A DNA stretch of 64,000 bases from Acidobacteriota bacterium (GTDB lineage: Bacteria > Acidobacteriota > Vicinamibacteria > Vicinamibacterales > CAVVIG01), in the NCBI GenBank assembly GCA_003222395.1, contig QHWB01000074.1:1-64000 (forward strand). Reading direction: 5' to 3'. This document shows, one piece after another, positions 25,639 to 34,061 of this stretch; position 1 is the stretch's first letter, and every line of letters starts with the position of its first letter. The notes under the pieces are model-generated. The model searched no databases and had not been told where the DNA came from. It worked only from the letters and a program-made list of their open reading frames with translations. A program made the translations under genes and the position numbers.

Positions 25639-27342
25639 TTACGAAGCCCGTCGAGAGACCACCTTACCGCCGACCATCGTCAGAGACGGGCGCATCCGCT
25701 CGACGTCCTTGTCCGGCACGGTCAGGATGTCTTCCGGCACAACGACGAGGTCGGCCAGCTTGCCCGGCTCGATCGATCCCTTGAGCGTTTCCTCGAACGT
25801 CAAGTACGCGTTGTTGATCGTTTCGACCTGCAGCGCCGCCTTCCTGCTGATCTTCTGATCGGCCCCCATCACGCCGCCGCTGATCGTGCCGCGCGACACG
25901 AAATGGTAGACGACCCAAAAAGGCGGATACGGCACGACTGGTGAATCGGTGCCGCCGGCGACGACAAATCCACGATCGATGTAGTCGCGCATCGGCGTCA
26001 CGCGGTGGGCGCGCGGCGCGCCCCAGTACTTCACGAGGCTCGGGCCCGCGAGATACAGGTGATTCTGAGCGGAAATGACGAGATCCAACGCTTTCATGCG
26101 CGGGAACTGATCGGGCTCGACGATGAACCCGTGCTCGATGGTCCAGCGTTTGCCGCGGATCGATTGCTCGGCGCTGGCCGATTCGTATGCGGCGAGCACT
26201 TCGTCGATTGCCGCGTCGCCGACCGCGTGCGTGGCAACGCGCCATCCTTCGCGATTCAGCTCCTTGACGACGTCGGTGAACGGCGCCTGCTTCATCGTGT
26301 TCACGCCACGGAACGTGCCGCCCTCACCCCACGGCTCCGCGTAGGGTTCGCGCATCCACCCGCCCTCGAACCCGCCGTCGACGCCGAGCTTCATGCCGCC
26401 GACGCGGAGCCACTCATCGCCTTCGTCGGGCTTCACGCCCGATGCGGCGATCGCCCGGCGCATCGACGCGGCGCTGTCGGCGTTGAAGCGCATCAGCTGA
26501 TTGACGCGGATGGTGAGGACGCCGCGGCGCGCCATCTCCTGCAGCAACCGGTACTGCTCGACCGACGCGCCGGGATACCGGATGCTGGTCAGTCCCGCCT
26601 CGTTCAACTTGCGGTGCTGCGCCTGCAGCGCCTCGATGGTCAGCTTCGGCGCCGCCGGCAAGGTGACGAGCGCCTTCGCGCGATCGATCAGCTCACCGTT
26701 CAGTTCACCGTGCTCGTCGCGCGTGATGCGTCCGCCGGCCGGCTGCGGCGTATCCTTTTTTATATTCCACTTCGCCAGCGCCGCCGAATTGAGAACGTAC
26801 TCATGTCCGCCGCGGACGACCACGACCGGATTGTTCGGCGAGACGCTGTCCAGATCGTGGCGATACGGCAGTCGCTGTTCCTCGAGCTGCGCTTCGTGCC
26901 AGTCGCTGTTCGTCACGATGACCTCGCCCGCAGCGCTCTGCTGCACGCGAGCTTTGATCGCCGTGAGCACATCAGGGATCGATCGCGCGCGCGACAGATC
27001 GACGCCCGGTCCGCCGCCGGCGTCGTGCAGGTGACCGTCTGCCAGCCCCGGAATCACCGTCTGGCCGTGCAGATCGATCGTCGTCGTGTTCGGCCCCGCG
27101 AGCGTCCTGATGTCGGCGTCCGTGCCGACGGCGGTGAAGCGGCCATCCTTGATCGCGATCGCCTGCGCGATCGAAAAGCGCGCGTCGACCGTAATCACGT
27201 GGCCATTGACGAGAATCGTGTCGGGCGGCGCCGCCTGCGCGTGCAACAAGCTGGCGGCGACAAAGAACAACAGGTAGCGCGAGGCTTTTAGCCGAGCGTT
27301 CGGCTCGCCTGAAACGCTCGCCCTATCGGTGGTTCCAATCAT
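25639..27342 (-). CDS. YtcJ-like amidohydrolase (amidohydrolase 3 family)
   Basis: 567 residues. The hydrophobic stretch YLLFFVAASLLHAQ is an export signal, but 22 residues precede it (MIGTTDRASVSGEPNARLKA), which are encoded by a palindromic repeat; a TTG start just before LFFVAAS may be the original start. The mature chain begins PPDTILVNGHVITVD and has the metal motif TVIPGLADGHLHD, a GGHEYVLNSAAL substrate-site segment, THAVGDAAIDEVL, IEHGF and GGTDSPVVPYPP with the metal Asp, ending ADLVVVPEDIL. This family (YtcJ/LAF3-like) cleaves amides of unknown nature. Divergent from the HtrA-like gene. Confidence 0.88.
   Translation of the reverse strand: MIGTTDRASVSGEPNARLKASRYLLFFVAASLLHAQAAPPDTILVNGHVITVDARFSIAQAIAIKDGRFTAVGTDADIRTLAGPNTTTIDLHGQTVIPGLADGHLHDAGGGPGVDLSRARSIPDVLTAIKARVQQSAAGEVIVTNSDWHEAQLEEQRLPYRHDLDSVSPNNPVVVVRGGHEYVLNSAALAKWNIKKDTPQPAGGRITRDEHGELNGELIDRAKALVTLPAAPKLTIEALQAQHRKLNEAGLTSIRYPGASVEQYRLLQEMARRGVLTIRVNQLMRFNADSAASMRRAIAASGVKPDEGDEWLRVGGMKLGVDGGFEGGWMREPYAEPWGEGGTFRGVNTMKQAPFTDVVKELNREGWRVATHAVGDAAIDEVLAAYESASAEQSIRGKRWTIEHGFIVEPDQFPRMKALDLVISAQNHLYLAGPSLVKYWGAPRAHRVTPMRDYIDRGFVVAGGTDSPVVPYPPFWVVYHFVSRGTISGGVMGADQKISRKAALQVETINNAYLTFEETLKGSIEPGKLADLVVVPEDILTVPDKDVERMRPSLTMVGGKVVSRRAS
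27277..27338. repeat. GCGAGGCTTTTAGCCGAGCG / GGCTCGCCTGAAACGCTCGC palindromic repeat pair
   Basis: Two copies of the GCGAGCCTTTCAGG family face each other (TAGCGCGAGGCTTTTAGCCG then GAGCGTTCGGCTCGCC and TGAAACGCTCGCCCTA). They overlap the beginning of the leftward amidohydrolase reading frame and supply its first residues. Confidence 0.75.
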
Positions 27343-27415
27343 CGCGCGTCCGTATCATACCCGTGCCGCCCGTTCGGGTGATCCAACGCCGCTGTCGTTC
27401 TGTCACCATCGCGTC

Positions 27416-28312
27416 ATGACATCCGATCTCCTTACCTCATTCTCGAACGCGCTCGCCGACGCCGTCGCCGCCGCTGCGCCGTCGGTCGTTCAGGTGCAGG
27501 GCCGTCGCCGTCCGGCCAGCGGACTCGTGTACGCTGACGATGTGGTGCTGACGATGGTCCGCTCGCTCGGCCGTGAAGACGGGTTGCGCGTGCGGCGCGA
27601 CGACGGTCAGGCGCTCGACGCCGAGCTCGCCGGCTGGGATCCGACCACCAGCCTCGCGGTGCTGCGCGTCGCCGGCCTCGGCGTCAAACCGATCGCGACC
27701 GCGCCTTCGTCGGCCCGCGTCGGGCACGTCGCGCTCGCCGTCGCCCGCTCGTGGAGCAACGTCGTCACCGCCAGCGCCGGAATCGTGTCGGTCATCGGCG
27801 GACCGCTGCCGACGGGCCGCCGCCGCGCGATCGATCAGGTGATTCGCACCACGGCACCGATGCACGACGGCTTTGCCGGCGGCGCGTTCGTCGATACGTC
27901 AGGCGCGCTGCTCGGCGTCGCCACCGCGGCCGCAATCCGCGGACTGGCCGTCGTCATCCCGGCGCCCATCGCGTGGAAAACGGCGGCGACGGTGCTCGAG
28001 CACGGTCAGTTGAAGCGCGGCTATCTCGGCGTGGCGGGACAGCCGGTGCGGCTGCCGGACAACCAGCTCGCTGACGGCCGGGAGGAAGCGCTGCTCGTCG
28101 TCGGCGTAACGAGCGGAAGCCCGGCAGCGGCGGCTGGCGTACTGGTCGGCGACGTGATCGTGGCGCTCGACGGACAGGCGGTCCAATCGCCTGAAGATTT
28201 GCTCGATCTGCTGCTTGGAGACCGCGTCGGCCGTCAGGTGACGCTGCGCGTACTGCGCGCCGGCAAGGCAACCGAGTTACGCGTGACCGTCGGCGAGCGT
28301 CCAACCAACTGA
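27416..28312 (+). CDS. HtrA-like pseudoprotease with PDZ domain
   Basis: 298 residues. The trypsin-fold order of HtrA is clear, yet each catalytic residue is replaced: the His strand reads YADDVVLTMVRSL (usual LTNxHVV), the Asp site reads DPTTSLAVLRV (usual TDLAVLKV), and the Ser site reads DGFAGGAFVDTSGALLGV (usual GNSGGPL). A PDZ domain (RGYLGVAGQPVRLP; VVGVTSGSPAAAAGVLVGDV) follows. No signal peptide is evident. The start MTSDLLTSFSNALADAV parallels the beginning of the intact HtrA at 28740-29687. It abuts the LuxR gene (TGA then ATG), so they are co-expressed. A regulatory or binding role is inferred. Confidence 0.88.
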   Translation: MTSDLLTSFSNALADAVAAAAPSVVQVQGRRRPASGLVYADDVVLTMVRSLGREDGLRVRRDDGQALDAELAGWDPTTSLAVLRVAGLGVKPIATAPSSARVGHVALAVARSWSNVVTASAGIVSVIGGPLPTGRRRAIDQVIRTTAPMHDGFAGGAFVDTSGALLGVATAAAIRGLAVVIPAPIAWKTAATVLEHGQLKRGYLGVAGQPVRLPDNQLADGREEALLVVGVTSGSPAAAAGVLVGDVIVALDGQAVQSPEDLLDLLLGDRVGRQVTLRVLRAGKATELRVTVGERPTN

Positions 28313-28702
28313 ATGCGTGTGATTCTCGTCGGAGGGCCCGCGGATCGCGATCGGCTGCGCGCGCAGATGAACGGCTCGATGACCGTCGTCGCAGAGTTTC
28401 CGACCATCGCGGCGGCCCGACGATCCGACCTCGACGTCGACGCGATGCTGATCGCAGCGGACACCGTCCACGCCGAGGCTCTCGACGACGACGATTCGCT
28501 CGACGAGCCGTTGACGCCGCGCGAGATTCAGGTGCTGGAGCTGCTCGCGGAGGGATTGCCGAACAAGACCATCGCCGCGCGGCTCGGCATCAGCGACCAG
28601 ACGGTGAAGTTCCACGTCGCGTCGATCTCCGGCAAGCTCGGCGCAGCCAACCGCACGGACGCCGTCCGCCGCGCGGTCAGACGCGGGCTCATCTCGCTGT
28701 AG
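28313..28702 (+). CDS. LuxR-type regulator with truncated receiver-like N-domain
   Basis: 129 residues. The C-terminal half is a LuxR/NarL HTH (LTPREIQVLELLAEGLPNKT, IAARLGISDQTVKFHVASIS, KLGAANRTDAVRRAVRRGLI). The first 60 residues resemble the beginning of a receiver (MRVILVGGPADRDRLRAQM... MLIAADTV), but are too short for a full one and lack the phospho-Asp strand. Its ATG directly follows the stop of the HtrA-like pseudoprotease gene. May therefore be controlled by a protein partner rather than by phosphorylation (inference). Its TAG stop is the start of a palindromic repeat. Confidence 0.88.
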   Translation: MRVILVGGPADRDRLRAQMNGSMTVVAEFPTIAAARRSDLDVDAMLIAADTVHAEALDDDDSLDEPLTPREIQVLELLAEGLPNKTIAARLGISDQTVKFHVASISGKLGAANRTDAVRRAVRRGLISL

Positions 28703-28745
28703 CGCGAGCCTTTCAGGCGAGCGCCGAGCCGCGGTGCGTTCAGGG
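28700..28745 (+). repeat. TAGCGCGAGCCTTTCAGG repeat at the end of the LuxR gene
   Basis: TAGCGCGAGCCTTTCAGGCG followed by AGCGCCGAGC and GCGGTGCGTTCAGGG. The first three bases are the LuxR stop codon, and the far end reaches the stop of the convergent HtrA gene. Confidence 0.75.
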
Positions 28746-29687
28746 CTGCGTTTCGACGGGCACCACGGTCAACTGCCGCCGCTGACCCTTTCGCAGCACC
28801 GTGAAGGTCGTCGGTGCGCCGATGCGATCTTCCGTGAGATGACGGTGGAGATCGTCCACGGCAGCCACCACTTCGTCGGCGCACGCCAGAATCACGTCGC
28901 CGTCCCGCAGCCCGGCTGTCGCGGCCGGGCTTTCCTTTTCCACGGACACCACGAGCACGCCCGACGAAACGGCGAGCTGATGCGCGCGCGCGAGCGCGCG
29001 CGGGATCGGCACGTTCTGTCCGGCGATGCCGACGTAGCTGCGGCGGATGCGGCCGTCGCGAATGAGGCGCGATGCGACGAAGCGCGCCGTGTTGCTCGCA
29101 ATCGCGAAGCACAGTCCCTGCGCCGGAAGGATGGTCGCCGTGTTGATGCCGATCACCTCGCCGCGCGTCGTCACGAGCGGTCCGCCCGAGTTGCCCGGAT
29201 TCAGCGCGGCGTCGGTCTGGATGATGTCGTCCATCAGGCGTCCCGACTGCGCGCGCAGCGATCGGCCGAGCGCGCTGACCACGCCGGCGGTCACTGAATG
29301 GTGGAAGCCGTACGGGTTGCCGATCGCGATCGCGACCTGGCCGACGCGGACGGCGCGCGAATCGGCGAGCGTCGCGAACGGAAATGGCGCGCGATCGGCG
29401 CCGACGCGGATGACCGCCAGATCGGTGTGCGCGTCGCGACCGACCAGGTCGGCCTGCATCGATCGGCCGTCCGGAAACATGACGTCGAGCCGGCCGCCGC
29501 GCGCGACGACGTGGCTGTTCGTCAGGATGAAGCCGTCGGGCGTGAAGATGACGCCCGATCCGCCTCCGCGCTCGACGTCCACTTTGACGACCGCCCGGCC
29601 GACGACGTCGACGGCGTGCGTCACCGCCCGCGAGTAGGCGTCGAGCAGCTCTTCATCATTTGTCTGATCGTTCGGTTGAGGGATCAC
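28740..29687 (-). CDS. HtrA/DegP-like serine protease with PDZ domain
   Basis: 315 residues from a GTG start (VIPQPNDQTNDEELLDAYSR). Full catalytic triad: His in FILTNSHVVARGG, Asp in GRDAHTDLAVIRV, Ser in DAALNPGNSGGPLVTTRGEV. One PDZ domain (SYVGIAGQNVPIPRALARAH; GVLVVSVEKESPAATAGLRD). No signal peptide is evident, so probably a cytoplasmic or atypically exported form. The longer upstream frame is rejected because it is Arg-rich and antisense to the propeller gene. Convergent with, and clearly paralogous to, the inactive copy at 27416-28312; the pair may arise from duplication. Confidence 0.9.
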   Translation of the reverse strand: MIPQPNDQTNDEELLDAYSRAVTHAVDVVGRAVVKVDVERGGGSGVIFTPDGFILTNSHVVARGGRLDVMFPDGRSMQADLVGRDAHTDLAVIRVGADRAPFPFATLADSRAVRVGQVAIAIGNPYGFHHSVTAGVVSALGRSLRAQSGRLMDDIIQTDAALNPGNSGGPLVTTRGEVIGINTATILPAQGLCFAIASNTARFVASRLIRDGRIRRSYVGIAGQNVPIPRALARAHQLAVSSGVLVVSVEKESPAATAGLRDGDVILACADEVVAAVDDLHRHLTEDRIGAPTTFTVLRKGQRRQLTVVPVETQP

Positions 29688-31019: not shown

Positions 31020-32177
31020 GTGGCGACCGCCGATCTCCATCGCGATCTGCGCAGCGCCGTACGCGATCTGTGCAAAGCCTTTCCCGACAGCTACTGGCGC
31101 GACCTCGACCGCGTGCGGGCGTATCCCGACGCCTTCGTCGGCGCGCTCACCGAGGGCGGCTACCTCGCCGCGCTGATCCCGGAGGAGTACGGCGGACACG
31201 GCCTCGGCATCGCCGAAGCGTCGGTCATTCTCGAAGAGATCAATCGCAGCGGCGGCAACGCCGGCGCGTGCCACGCGCAGATGTACACGATGGGGACGCT
31301 GCTGCGCCATGGATCTGAGGCGCAGAAGCGCGCGTTCCTGCCGAAGATTGCGAGCGGCGAGCTGCGGCTGCAGGCGTTTGGCGTCACAGAGCCGACGACG
31401 GGCTCCGATACGACGCAGCTGAAGACGACGGCGACGCGCAAGGACGGCGTCTACATCGTCCGCGGACAGAAGGTGTGGATCTCCCGGGCCGAACACTCCG
31501 ATCTGCTGCTGCTCGTCGCGAGAACAACGCCGGTGGACGACGTCAAGAAGCGCACCGACGGCTTGTCGATCCTGCTCATCGATCTGCGCAGTGCGGTCGG
31601 CCGCGGCCTGACGATCCGTCCGATTAGAACGATGATGAATCACGCGACGACCGAGTTGTTCTTCGACGACCTCGAGGTGCCGACCGATGCGCTGGTCGGC
31701 GAGGAGGGACAAGGATTCCGATACCTGCTCGACGGCCTCAACGCCGAGCGGATCCTGATCGCCGCCGAGTGCGTCGGCGACGGACGTTGGTTCGTCGACC
31801 GGGCGACGAAGTACGCGAAGGAGCGCGTCGTGTTCAATCGGCCGATCGGACAGAACCAGGGCGTGCAGTTTCCGATCGCGCGGGCGCACGTGAACGTCGA
31901 GGCGGCGGACCTGATGCGCGTTCGGGCGGCGGAGCTGTTCGATCGCGGCGAGCCGTGCGGCGCCGAAGCCAACATGGCGAAGCTGCTGGCGGCCGACGCG
32001 TCGTGGGAAGCCGCCAACGTCGCCGTCCAGACGCACGGCGGCTTTGGGTTCGCGGAGGACTACGACATCGAGCGCAAATTCCGCGAGACGCGCCTGTATC
32101 AGGTCGCGCCGATTTCGACGAACCTGATCCTCGCCTACATCGCTGAACACGTACTCGCGTTGCCCAGATCGTATTAG
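31020..32177 (+). CDS. Acyl-CoA dehydrogenase
   Basis: 385 residues, full length for the family, from a GTG start. N-terminal helical domain (FVGALTEGGYLAALIPEEYG), the middle beta domain with QAFGVTEPTTGSDTTQLKTT, VRGQKVWISRAEHSDLLLLV, and the C-terminal helical domain with ATKYAKERVVFNRPIGQNQG and a HGGFGFAEDYDIERKFRETR segment. The usual catalytic Glu position near the YxxxR stretch holds VQTHGGFGFAEDYDIER; assignment of the base needs a structure. An FAD enzyme forming a double bond in an acyl-CoA. Followed by CoA-transferase and MaoC genes; the three form a catabolic group. Confidence 0.93.
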   Translation: MATADLHRDLRSAVRDLCKAFPDSYWRDLDRVRAYPDAFVGALTEGGYLAALIPEEYGGHGLGIAEASVILEEINRSGGNAGACHAQMYTMGTLLRHGSEAQKRAFLPKIASGELRLQAFGVTEPTTGSDTTQLKTTATRKDGVYIVRGQKVWISRAEHSDLLLLVARTTPVDDVKKRTDGLSILLIDLRSAVGRGLTIRPIRTMMNHATTELFFDDLEVPTDALVGEEGQGFRYLLDGLNAERILIAAECVGDGRWFVDRATKYAKERVVFNRPIGQNQGVQFPIARAHVNVEAADLMRVRAAELFDRGEPCGAEANMAKLLAADASWEAANVAVQTHGGFGFAEDYDIERKFRETRLYQVAPISTNLILAYIAEHVLALPRSY

Positions 32178-32221
32178 AGAAAAAAATTGTCGGTGTGGAA
32201 TGTAAGCCTGCGACGTTCGGT

Positions 32222-32366
32222 TCTAGATACACGCGAGGGCTACGGCCCGAGCGTGTCAGCGCGTGACAGCCTTGAGCCGTTGCGAGGCGCGAACGCGCCG
32301 AGCAACCGCGCCGGGGGTGGGGCCCCGGCGCGAGTGGAAGATGGTGGGGCCCCACGCGAATAAGAA
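32222..32366 (+). repeat. Leader-associated repeat, copy A (upstream of the CoA-transferase gene)
   Basis: Starts TCTAGATACACGCGAG..., contains GAGCGTGTCAGCGCGT, and ends with GGTGGGGCCCCACGCG then AATAAGAA (32343-32366). The last 24 bases are identical to copy B at 56924-56947. Copy A has an extra block with a partial second GGGGTGGGGCCCC unit (near 32312-32326). It fills the non-coding gap between the acyl-CoA dehydrogenase and CoA-transferase genes. Confidence 0.8.
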
Positions 32367-32396
32367 GACGTTGGCTGCCCACCAACACAGCCAATA

Positions 32397-33575
32397 ATGC
32401 TTCCTCTTGAACACATCACCGTCGTCGCCGTTGAGCAGGCGGTCGCGGCGCCGTTCGCCACGCGCCATCTCGCCGACCTCGGGGCGCGCGTCATCAAGAT
32501 CGAGCGGCCCGACGGCGGCGACTTCGCACGCGGCTACGATGCAGCGGTCAACGGCCTGTCGTCGCATTTCGTCTGGCTGAATCGCACGAAGGAATCGCTG
32601 ACGCTCGATCTCAAACGGCCCGAAGCGTCAACGGTCATGTCGCGGCTGCTGGATCGCGCGGACGTGTTCGTCCAGAACCTCGCGCCCGGTGCGGCGTCGC
32701 GGCTCGGCATGGCCGCCGCCGATCTGCACGCGCGATATCCTCGACTGATCGTCTGCGACATCTCCGGATACGGATCGTCGGGTCCGTACGCCAACGAGAA
32801 GGCGTACGACCTGCTCGTCCAGAGCGAAGTCGGGCTGGTGTCGATCACCGGCAGCGAAGCGGAGCCGGCGAAAGCGGGCGTCTCGGTCGCCGATATCGCG
32901 GCGGGAATGTACACGTACTCCGGCATCCTCGCCGCGCTCGTCGCGCGCGCGCGGAGCGGACGGGGCACGATCGTCGAAGTTTCGCTGTTCGACGCGCTGT
33001 CGGAGTGGATGGGATTCGCCGCGTACTACACCGCCTACAGCGGATCGCCGCCGCCGCGGACCGGCGCCCATCACGCCTCGATCGCGCCATACGGGCCATT
33101 TCGCACACGTGACGGCGACACCGTCGTCCTCGCCGTGCAGAACGCGCGCGAGTGGATGCGATTCTGCGCGGAGGTGCTCGGACGGTCCGAGCTGGCCGGC
33201 GATGACCGGTTCCGCACGAACCCGCTGCGCGTCGCCAATCGCAGCGCGCTGCACCTCGCTATCGAGTCGGCGCTCGGATCGCTCCCCACGTCCGACGTCG
33301 TCGCCCGGCTGAAGGCGGCGCGCATCGCCCACGCGCGCGTGAACTCGGTGGCACAGTATCTCGACCATCCGCAGCTCGGCGAACGCGACGTGTGGCGAGA
33401 GATCGCTTCGCCGGCGGGCGTTCTGCGCGCGATGATTCCGCCGGTCCGCATGGCCGGCGTCGCGCCGGCGGTCGGGCCGGTGCCGGCGCTCGGCCAGCAC
33501 ACCGACGCGATCCTCCGCGAGCTCGGCGTGAACGGCGACACGATTGCCCGCTGGCGGCGGGAGGGAGTCATCTGA
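32397..33575 (+). CDS. Family III CoA-transferase (CaiB/BaiF)
   Basis: 392 residues, full length. N-terminal MLPLEHITVVAVEQAVAAPF, ARVIKIERPDGGDFARGYDA, and LNRTKESLTLDLKRPEAS are family hallmarks, as is GYGSSGPYANEKAYDLLVQS containing the catalytic Asp (YDLLVQ, equivalent to the Asp that forms the acyl-anhydride). C-terminal part carries WMRFCAEVLGRSELAGDDRF and VPALGQHTDAILRELG. Transfers CoA between organic acids by a ping-pong or ternary mechanism. It is followed without gap by the MaoC gene (TGA then ATG), so transfer and hydration probably act on the same acyl-CoA. Substrate not known. Confidence 0.93.
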   Translation: MLPLEHITVVAVEQAVAAPFATRHLADLGARVIKIERPDGGDFARGYDAAVNGLSSHFVWLNRTKESLTLDLKRPEASTVMSRLLDRADVFVQNLAPGAASRLGMAAADLHARYPRLIVCDISGYGSSGPYANEKAYDLLVQSEVGLVSITGSEAEPAKAGVSVADIAAGMYTYSGILAALVARARSGRGTIVEVSLFDALSEWMGFAAYYTAYSGSPPPRTGAHHASIAPYGPFRTRDGDTVVLAVQNAREWMRFCAEVLGRSELAGDDRFRTNPLRVANRSALHLAIESALGSLPTSDVVARLKAARIAHARVNSVAQYLDHPQLGERDVWREIASPAGVLRAMIPPVRMAGVAPAVGPVPALGQHTDAILRELGVNGDTIARWRREGVI

Positions 33576-34061
33576 ATGGCGAGCAAACAGGGATGGACGG
33601 GCCGCGTGTTCGAGGATTTTCATGTCGGCGACGTCTACGAGCATCCGCTGGGCCGCACGCTGCTCGCCGCTGACAACGTGTGGTTCACCTGCCTGACGCT
33701 GAACACGAATCCGATCCACCTGGATGCCGTCTATGCGGCCGAGACCGAATTCAAGCGGCCGCTCATGAACTCGTGCTTCACGCTCGCGCTCGTCACCGGT
33801 CAGTCGGTGATCGATCTCACGCAGAACGCCGTCGCGAACCTTGGATGGGACGAAGTGCGGCTGCCGCATCCCGTGTTCGAGGGCGACACGATTTATTCGC
33901 GGAGTGAGGTGCTCGACACGCGCGAGTCGAAGTCGCGGCCGAAGGCGGGCATCGTTCGGGTGAAGACGACCGGCGTGAACCAGAACGGCACGCCGGTCAT
34001 CGAGTTCAAGCGGACGTTCATGGTCTGGAAGAAGGGGCATGTTCCGGCGCGGCGCACGTGA
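33576..34061 (+). CDS. MaoC-like enoyl-CoA hydratase (mesaconyl-CoA hydratase-like)
   Basis: 161 residues, one hot-dog domain. RVFEDFHVGDVYEHPLGRTL, LLAADNVWFTCLTLNTNPIH, the (S/T)LALVTGQSV segment and AVANLGWDEVRLPHPVFEGD are the MaoC pattern, with the Asp/His pair replaced by N-x-NPIHLD, as in the mesaconyl-CoA / 2-methylfumaryl-CoA hydratase branch. Together with the CaiB gene it resembles the mct/mch pair that handles mesaconyl-CoA in other bacteria; the exact substrate is inferred. Its last 44 bases overlap the convergent esterase gene. Confidence 0.87.
   Translation: MASKQGWTGRVFEDFHVGDVYEHPLGRTLLAADNVWFTCLTLNTNPIHLDAVYAAETEFKRPLMNSCFTLALVTGQSVIDLTQNAVANLGWDEVRLPHPVFEGDTIYSRSEVLDTRESKSRPKAGIVRVKTTGVNQNGTPVIEFKRTFMVWKKGHVPARRT

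Follow-up and report, generated by a model that had tools for sequence, protein, structure and literature searches.

The window, by which we mean the whole stretch of 64,000 nucleotides analysed here, contains three neighbouring genes, encoding a degenerate HtrA (pseudo-HtrA, PS), a LuxR/GerE regulator and an intact HtrA (P3), together with putative regulatory elements upstream of PS and of P3 (Table 1). PS exhibits the domain order of an HtrA, a trypsin-like domain (Trypsin_2, E 2.9e-13) followed by a PDZ domain (PDZ_2, E 6.3e-17). AlphaFold confidently predicts an HtrA fold for it (pLDDT 93.9, pTM 0.79), and the nearest structures found by Foldseek are DegS, MucD and DegQ, the best match being DegS 6ew9 (E 7.1e-24). 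When PS is aligned with P3, in which the catalytic His, Asp and Ser are all present, the three corresponding columns hold R, S and A, and PS is thus presumably devoid of catalytic activity. The initial annotation, according to which the whole triad is changed while the PDZ domain is retained, is borne out by these results.

Table 1. Coordinates of the genes and putative regulatory elements at the PS locus
Feature	Position	Strand	Description	Evidence
Pseudo-HtrA (PS)	27416..28312	+	298 aa	ORF, Pfam, alignment to P3, AlphaFold
LuxR/GerE regulator	28313..28702	+	129 aa, half receiver, C-terminus GLISL	
Intact HtrA (P3)	28740..29687	-	315 aa, start codon GTG (29687), no apparent signal peptide	
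Putative LuxR operator of the PS-LuxR operon	27369..27384	+	CCCGTTCGGGTGATCC, centre 42.5 bp before ATG	
-10-like hexamer of PS	27404..27409	+	CACCAT, 6 nt upstream of the ATG	
Putative LuxR operator of P3	29719..29742	-	perfect inverted repeat, 10-bp arms, 4-bp spacer, centre 43.5 bp before GTG	
-10-like hexamer of P3	29694..29699	-	TACGAT, 6 nt upstream of the GTG	

The stop codon of PS (TGA, 28310-28312) directly abuts the ATG of the LuxR gene, in frame, as had been noted initially, and this layout leads us to infer that the two genes are co-transcribed. A fusion of both proteins by stop-codon readthrough is not supported, since the in-frame abutment is found only at some loci and the offset is variable. 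P3 is convergent to the LuxR gene; the distance of 40 bases at which it had been placed holds when measured from LuxR, whose stop lies 37 bp from the stop end of P3, and not from the pseudoprotease. Further along, genes for an acyl-CoA dehydrogenase, a CoA-transferase III and a MaoC/mesaconyl-CoA hydratase stand in a row at 31020-34061 and probably constitute a small acyl-CoA pathway.

The export signal or membrane anchor of HtrA proteins was not found: none of the eight HtrA proteins checked (PS and P3) exhibits a strongly hydrophobic N-terminal segment, and the stop-bounded frames of PS in G092, G095 and G125 and of P3 in G113 leave no room for a signal. Both proteins are therefore probably cytoplasmic. 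Bacterial HtrAs are described in PMC4339722 as extracytoplasmic.

Conservation of the pair and loss of the catalytic triad

Among the 162 genomes of the order, a search with a profile built from 24 relatives retrieved a full-length PS in 41 and, in addition, two partial copies, and PS scores were separated by a gap from those of ordinary HtrAs (262 vs 183 bits). With the cut-off at E 1e-55, matches were obtained in 46 of the 193 genomes of the class and in 16 of the 396 genomes of a phylum sample, the two sets overlapping. The classes of G217 and G258 contain the PS type in one of five and one of 41 genomes, respectively, and their remaining matches score like ordinary HtrA. The closest relatives of PS are mostly labelled Acidobacteria, several of them 'gp6' and one Luteitalea. 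Two loci from assemblies titled 'Acidimicrobiia bacterium' and 'Bifidobacterium breve' (L055 and L056) carry a pair of the Acidobacteriota type with 62-68% identity, and the names of these metagenome-assembled genomes look wrong.

A LuxR gene adjoins PS on the same strand at 48 of the 51 loci examined, and in the exceptions (G009, G107, L060) the contig stops within PS or directly behind it. Three gene orders are observed: PS-LuxR with a convergent HtrA, PS-LuxR-HtrA on one strand, and LuxR-PS-HtrA. Between relatives, the dN/dS of PS ranges from 0.10 to 0.24 (Nei-Gojobori, 11 pairs, with synonymous differences of up to 0.60 and partly saturated). Together with the open frames, these values rule out a recent pseudogene. 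Beyond the three genes, the search for conserved neighbours returned recurrent ORFs that are mostly antisense shadows or lineage-specific. As both the pair and the dead triad are conserved and PS is under purifying selection, the arrangement is more than a chance one, and by these comparisons PS-LuxR is an old, selected module. No description of such a pair of HtrA pseudoprotease and LuxR protein was found in the open-access papers searched, among which most subscription journals are not represented.

P3 lies near the pair at 26 of 48 loci according to a hand-coded list, so that, as for MamO, a protein with a degenerate triad is found close to an active paralogue. Within the order, 23 of the 43 genomes carrying the pair contain, by bit score, an active HtrA of the P3 type, and a few others contain partial copies. 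On the tree, its linkage to the pair undergoes no fewer than 14 changes, and P3 is itself under purifying selection (dN/dS 0.10-0.21, Nei-Gojobori, four pairs). In G112 and G120 (L099 and L105), the active HtrA beside the pair appears to be in fragments, owing to a disruption of the gene or to an error in sequencing.

A tree was computed for 92 HtrA proteins (48 PS, 32 P3 and 12 other HtrAs), truncated copies being excluded. It separates all 48 PS from the rest by one split (100/100), and P3 joins the ordinary HtrAs, which rules out PS as a recent tandem duplicate of its neighbour. Within PS, 37 triad-less proteins form one clade (100/98), so a single loss of the triad suffices. Each of these 37 keeps at most one triad residue. 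The His column holds R in 28 and His in three; the Asp has been lost in all, with G or S in 34; and the Ser column holds A or T in 31, one of A, T, V and N in 33, and Ser in four. The check proposed with the initial annotation, whether relatives keep the dead triad and the LuxR neighbour, is thereby answered in the affirmative for the whole triad-less clade and for 48 of 51 loci. The invariant polar residues of the clade include R32, R111, W113, T133, R144, H150, T170 and R175, and in 24 f1-type members the stretch 141-160, which surrounds the dead site, ranks with the best-conserved parts. Outside the clade, 10 of the 11 complete PS hold all three triad residues; G190, which has lost the Asp and in which LuxR is cut by the contig end, was placed in neither the triad-intact nor the triad-less group. 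Even the triad-intact PS are devoid of the HtrA motif GNSGGP and mostly exhibit a GFSGG-type sequence, so the change of function may predate the loss of the triad; in three of them (L139, L141 and L142, from G163, G164 and G166), GFSGG(L) or GFSGS takes its place.

The LuxR protein has a GerE helix-turn-helix (HTH) domain (E 3.9e-22), as do NarL/FixJ regulators, and lacks their phosphorylatable receiver: the approximately 66 residues preceding the HTH gave no Pfam receiver match, in agreement with the half receiver initially annotated. This shortening coincides, in the sequences compared, with the loss of the PS triad. The stretch before the HTH comprises 126-156 aa in all ten triad-intact lineages and 54-93 aa in all 32 measurable triad-less members, four more being unmeasurable. 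For L055 and L109 (G003 and G078), the LuxR start seemingly lies in a different frame from the HTH, owing to a frameshift or an assembly error. The canonical receiver pattern comprises an acidic pair and a Lys, and by eye these residues are changed in the longer versions. Of seven full-length LuxR relatives, two gave Response_reg matches below the cut-off and five none. Judged by sequence, even the longer versions make poor receivers, and the mode of action of an ordinary phosphorylated response regulator is ruled out for the LuxR protein.

A candidate operator upstream of PS and P3

The upstream sequences of close relatives could not be aligned except for one block, which corresponds to the palindrome CCC-N4-GGGTGAT. 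In 21 of 48 PS genes the start codon follows the centre of this palindrome at a distance of 41.5-44.5 bp; in G013, G004, G021 and G160 the distance is 54.5-58.5 bp and the start codon bears a GGAG-type sequence. The motif came from this alignment; counts of exact palindromes over the upstream regions gave no common word. An operator matrix was derived from 20 PS sites, with the 99th percentile of mononucleotide-shuffled upstream sequences as threshold; the upstream sequence of G146 was too short to be scored. Sites above threshold were obtained for 21 of the 28 PS promoters that had not contributed to the matrix (seven had none) and for 12 of the 17 P3 genes that stand outside the operon in genomes carrying PS or LuxR. 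The separate P3 promoters with no scoring site are those of G011, which has a recognisable variant, G106, G105, G068 and G069. None of the nine P3 genes that follow the pair in the same orientation has such a site, and of two P3 genes in pair-less genomes, one has a match at the wrong position (G037) and the other none.

Of 39 promoters, counting only those with the palindrome 40-45 bp from the start, 33 carry a -10-like hexamer with A at position 2 and T at position 6, separated from the start codon by 6 nt. The palindrome thus stands at a fixed spacing to the -10 hexamer, as is usual for LuxR-type activators. A TANNNT sequence about 12 bp before the start codon has been taken as a mark of leaderless genes (PMC3160421). 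A sigma-70 consensus scan found no promoter, and the PS and P3 promoters have no -35 consensus. Should transcription begin at the start codon itself, the palindrome would be located at -42.5, a position of class-II activators.

A strict version of the palindrome occurs at three sites in the 7.7-Mb genome of the window, against two for the reversed control, which rules out a general promoter element. In six other genomes, 29 sites were counted against 15 for the control. A start codon lies 42.5-43.5 bp downstream of seven of these 32 sites, and all seven belong to PS or P3. The strict pattern was derived from these same operator sites and misses the P3 site of the window; as variants escape it, further targets may exist. 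The presence of the palindrome at both PS and P3 suggests that the active HtrA belongs to the LuxR circuit. A divergent amidohydrolase gene (Amidohydro_3, 25639-27342) shares the gap 27343-27415 with the PS promoter, and the palindrome might affect this gene as well.

A possible LuxR-HtrA circuit and its alternatives

Based on these observations, we propose a three-gene cytoplasmic circuit in which LuxR activates both promoters and PS, as its dedicated partner, controls LuxR; the evidence for the circuit as a whole appears to us evenly balanced. Its parts differ in strength, and the sign of control, the binding and the signal are those that we infer. LuxR would bind the palindrome about 42.5 bp before the PS-LuxR operon and before the gene of the active HtrA, and its activation of both, to judge from the placement of the operators, is quite probable. 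A direct partnership between PS and LuxR is somewhat less assured, although still reasonably likely: having kept its fold and PDZ domain and presumably no longer cutting, PS most likely holds LuxR. The initial annotation had suggested a sensor or inhibitor of the regulator, and this has become more plausible, at the level of sequence, through the constant pairing, the coincident loss of triad and half receiver, the lack of an export signal, and LuxR C-termini resembling PDZ ligands.

HtrA PDZ domains bind hydrophobic C-termini. Of the 48 LuxR partners, 45 have L, I, V or F as their last residue, a count that is not independent, the 48 proteins being mutually related; over at least 16 changes on the tree this class was left once. 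The exceptions, G098 (A) and G095 and G099 (T), are three members of one genus, and their PDZ loop is unchanged. The carboxylate loop [YF]xG of the PDZ domain is kept in all 48 complete PS. Among other GerE proteins in an HMM listing of six genomes, 7 of 46 end in one of these residues (8 of 51 in the scripted count, before five low-scoring duplicate rows were removed by hand). A contact between the LuxR C-terminus and the PDZ domain of PS is nevertheless only a lead, because the hydrophobic residue might be kept for packing in the HTH. An AlphaFold model of a PS-LuxR fusion (pTM 0.54) was uninformative on the interface.

PS would probably grip LuxR by this hydrophobic C-terminus, next to the HTH, and competing hydrophobic protein ends or misfolded proteins, which are substrates of the active HtrA, would free LuxR, which would then switch on the live HtrA and more of the PS gauge. 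That PS is in this manner a titratable anti-activator bound to the LuxR C-terminus is a tentative proposal, and so, to the same degree, is the reading of the dead protease as a gauge of the substrates of the live one. If the latter is true, the locus would encode a one-component proteostasis circuit in place of a phosphorylation-type input. Several observations weigh against the proposed circuit: the C-terminus may merely pack in the HTH, with three of the 48 ending in T or A; a scoring operator is absent from 5 of the 17 separate P3 promoters and 7 of the 28 untrained PS promoters; P3 is missing from many pair-bearing genomes; and four triad-less members keep the Ser and three the His.

The frequent vicinity of an active HtrA (26 of 48 loci), the operator common to both genes and the alignment of PS and P3 across their N-terminal stretch would also be expected if PS served the active HtrA as a non-catalytic subunit or as its activator, with LuxR merely controlling the expression of both. 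MamO, likewise an HtrA pseudoprotease, activates MamE-dependent proteolysis (PMC4794232). However, an active HtrA was found in only 23 of 43 pair genomes and its linkage is repeatedly changed (at least 14 times), whereas LuxR is there wherever the contig allows, and we consider this explanation unlikely. As the carboxylate loop is kept in both HtrAs, the LuxR C-terminus could instead be a degron for the PDZ domain of the active enzyme, from which PS shields LuxR; the level of LuxR would then be controlled rather than its DNA binding, and its activation of P3 would close a negative feedback. The C-terminus is still hydrophobic where the active HtrA was not found (e.g. G026, G020, G019 and G021), which makes this less probable again.

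The residues conserved around the dead site could point to another role, in which the old active site has become a pocket for a small molecule or peptide, lined by invariant Arg and His residues, and PS is a ligand-dependent co-activator of LuxR. The invariance of R32, R111, W113, R144, H150, T170 and R175 in the 37 triad-less proteins and the strong conservation of residues 141-160 in the f1-type members fit such a pocket; on the other hand, no ligand is known, and we regard the proposal as decidedly improbable. Gene neighbours often have only expression in common, so PS and LuxR might share a promoter and never interact physically. This would leave the persistence of the pair over many families and in both gene orders, with coincident degeneration, unaccounted for, and it is the alternative to which we give the least credit.

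Comparison with known systems

Work on bacterial HtrAs has mostly concerned exported quality-control proteases. Here, two HtrA-type proteins with no export signals, one of them dead, appear to be wired to a transcription factor. Since the lineage retains both stages, a triad-intact PS with a full-length degenerate receiver and a triad-dead PS with a half receiver, the change from protease to regulator is directly testable.

The closest parallel in gene arrangement is MamO/MamE, in which a degenerate HtrA-type protein is likewise found beside an active relative (PMC4794232). MamO, however, acts in magnetite formation and metal binding, whereas the constant partner of PS is LuxR and no export signal is seen. 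The best fold match of PS, DegS of the DegS-RseA-sigmaE system, is also an HtrA with a single PDZ domain and a sensor reading C-terminal peptides. DegS is a membrane-anchored active protease that cuts an anti-sigma factor; PS, in contrast, exhibits neither anchor nor signal, its triad is dead, and its partner is a LuxR protein.

With regard to the regulator, the usual phosphorylation is as unlikely as in the atypical response regulators with an Asp-less or degenerate receiver described in PMC4395418. In contrast to these, the LuxR protein has in addition lost about half of its receiver, in parallel with the decay of its protease partner. The lux box is positioned about 42.5 bp from the transcription start, and the palindrome, known here from its sequence, lies at a similar distance from the presumed start. 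Unlike the LuxR activators acting at lux boxes, the regulator has no autoinducer domain, and its promoters are putatively leaderless. Pseudoproteases of the HtrA type, degenerate receivers and LuxR activators are thus individually known; a union of the three in one module with a common operator was encountered in none of the open-access papers searched.
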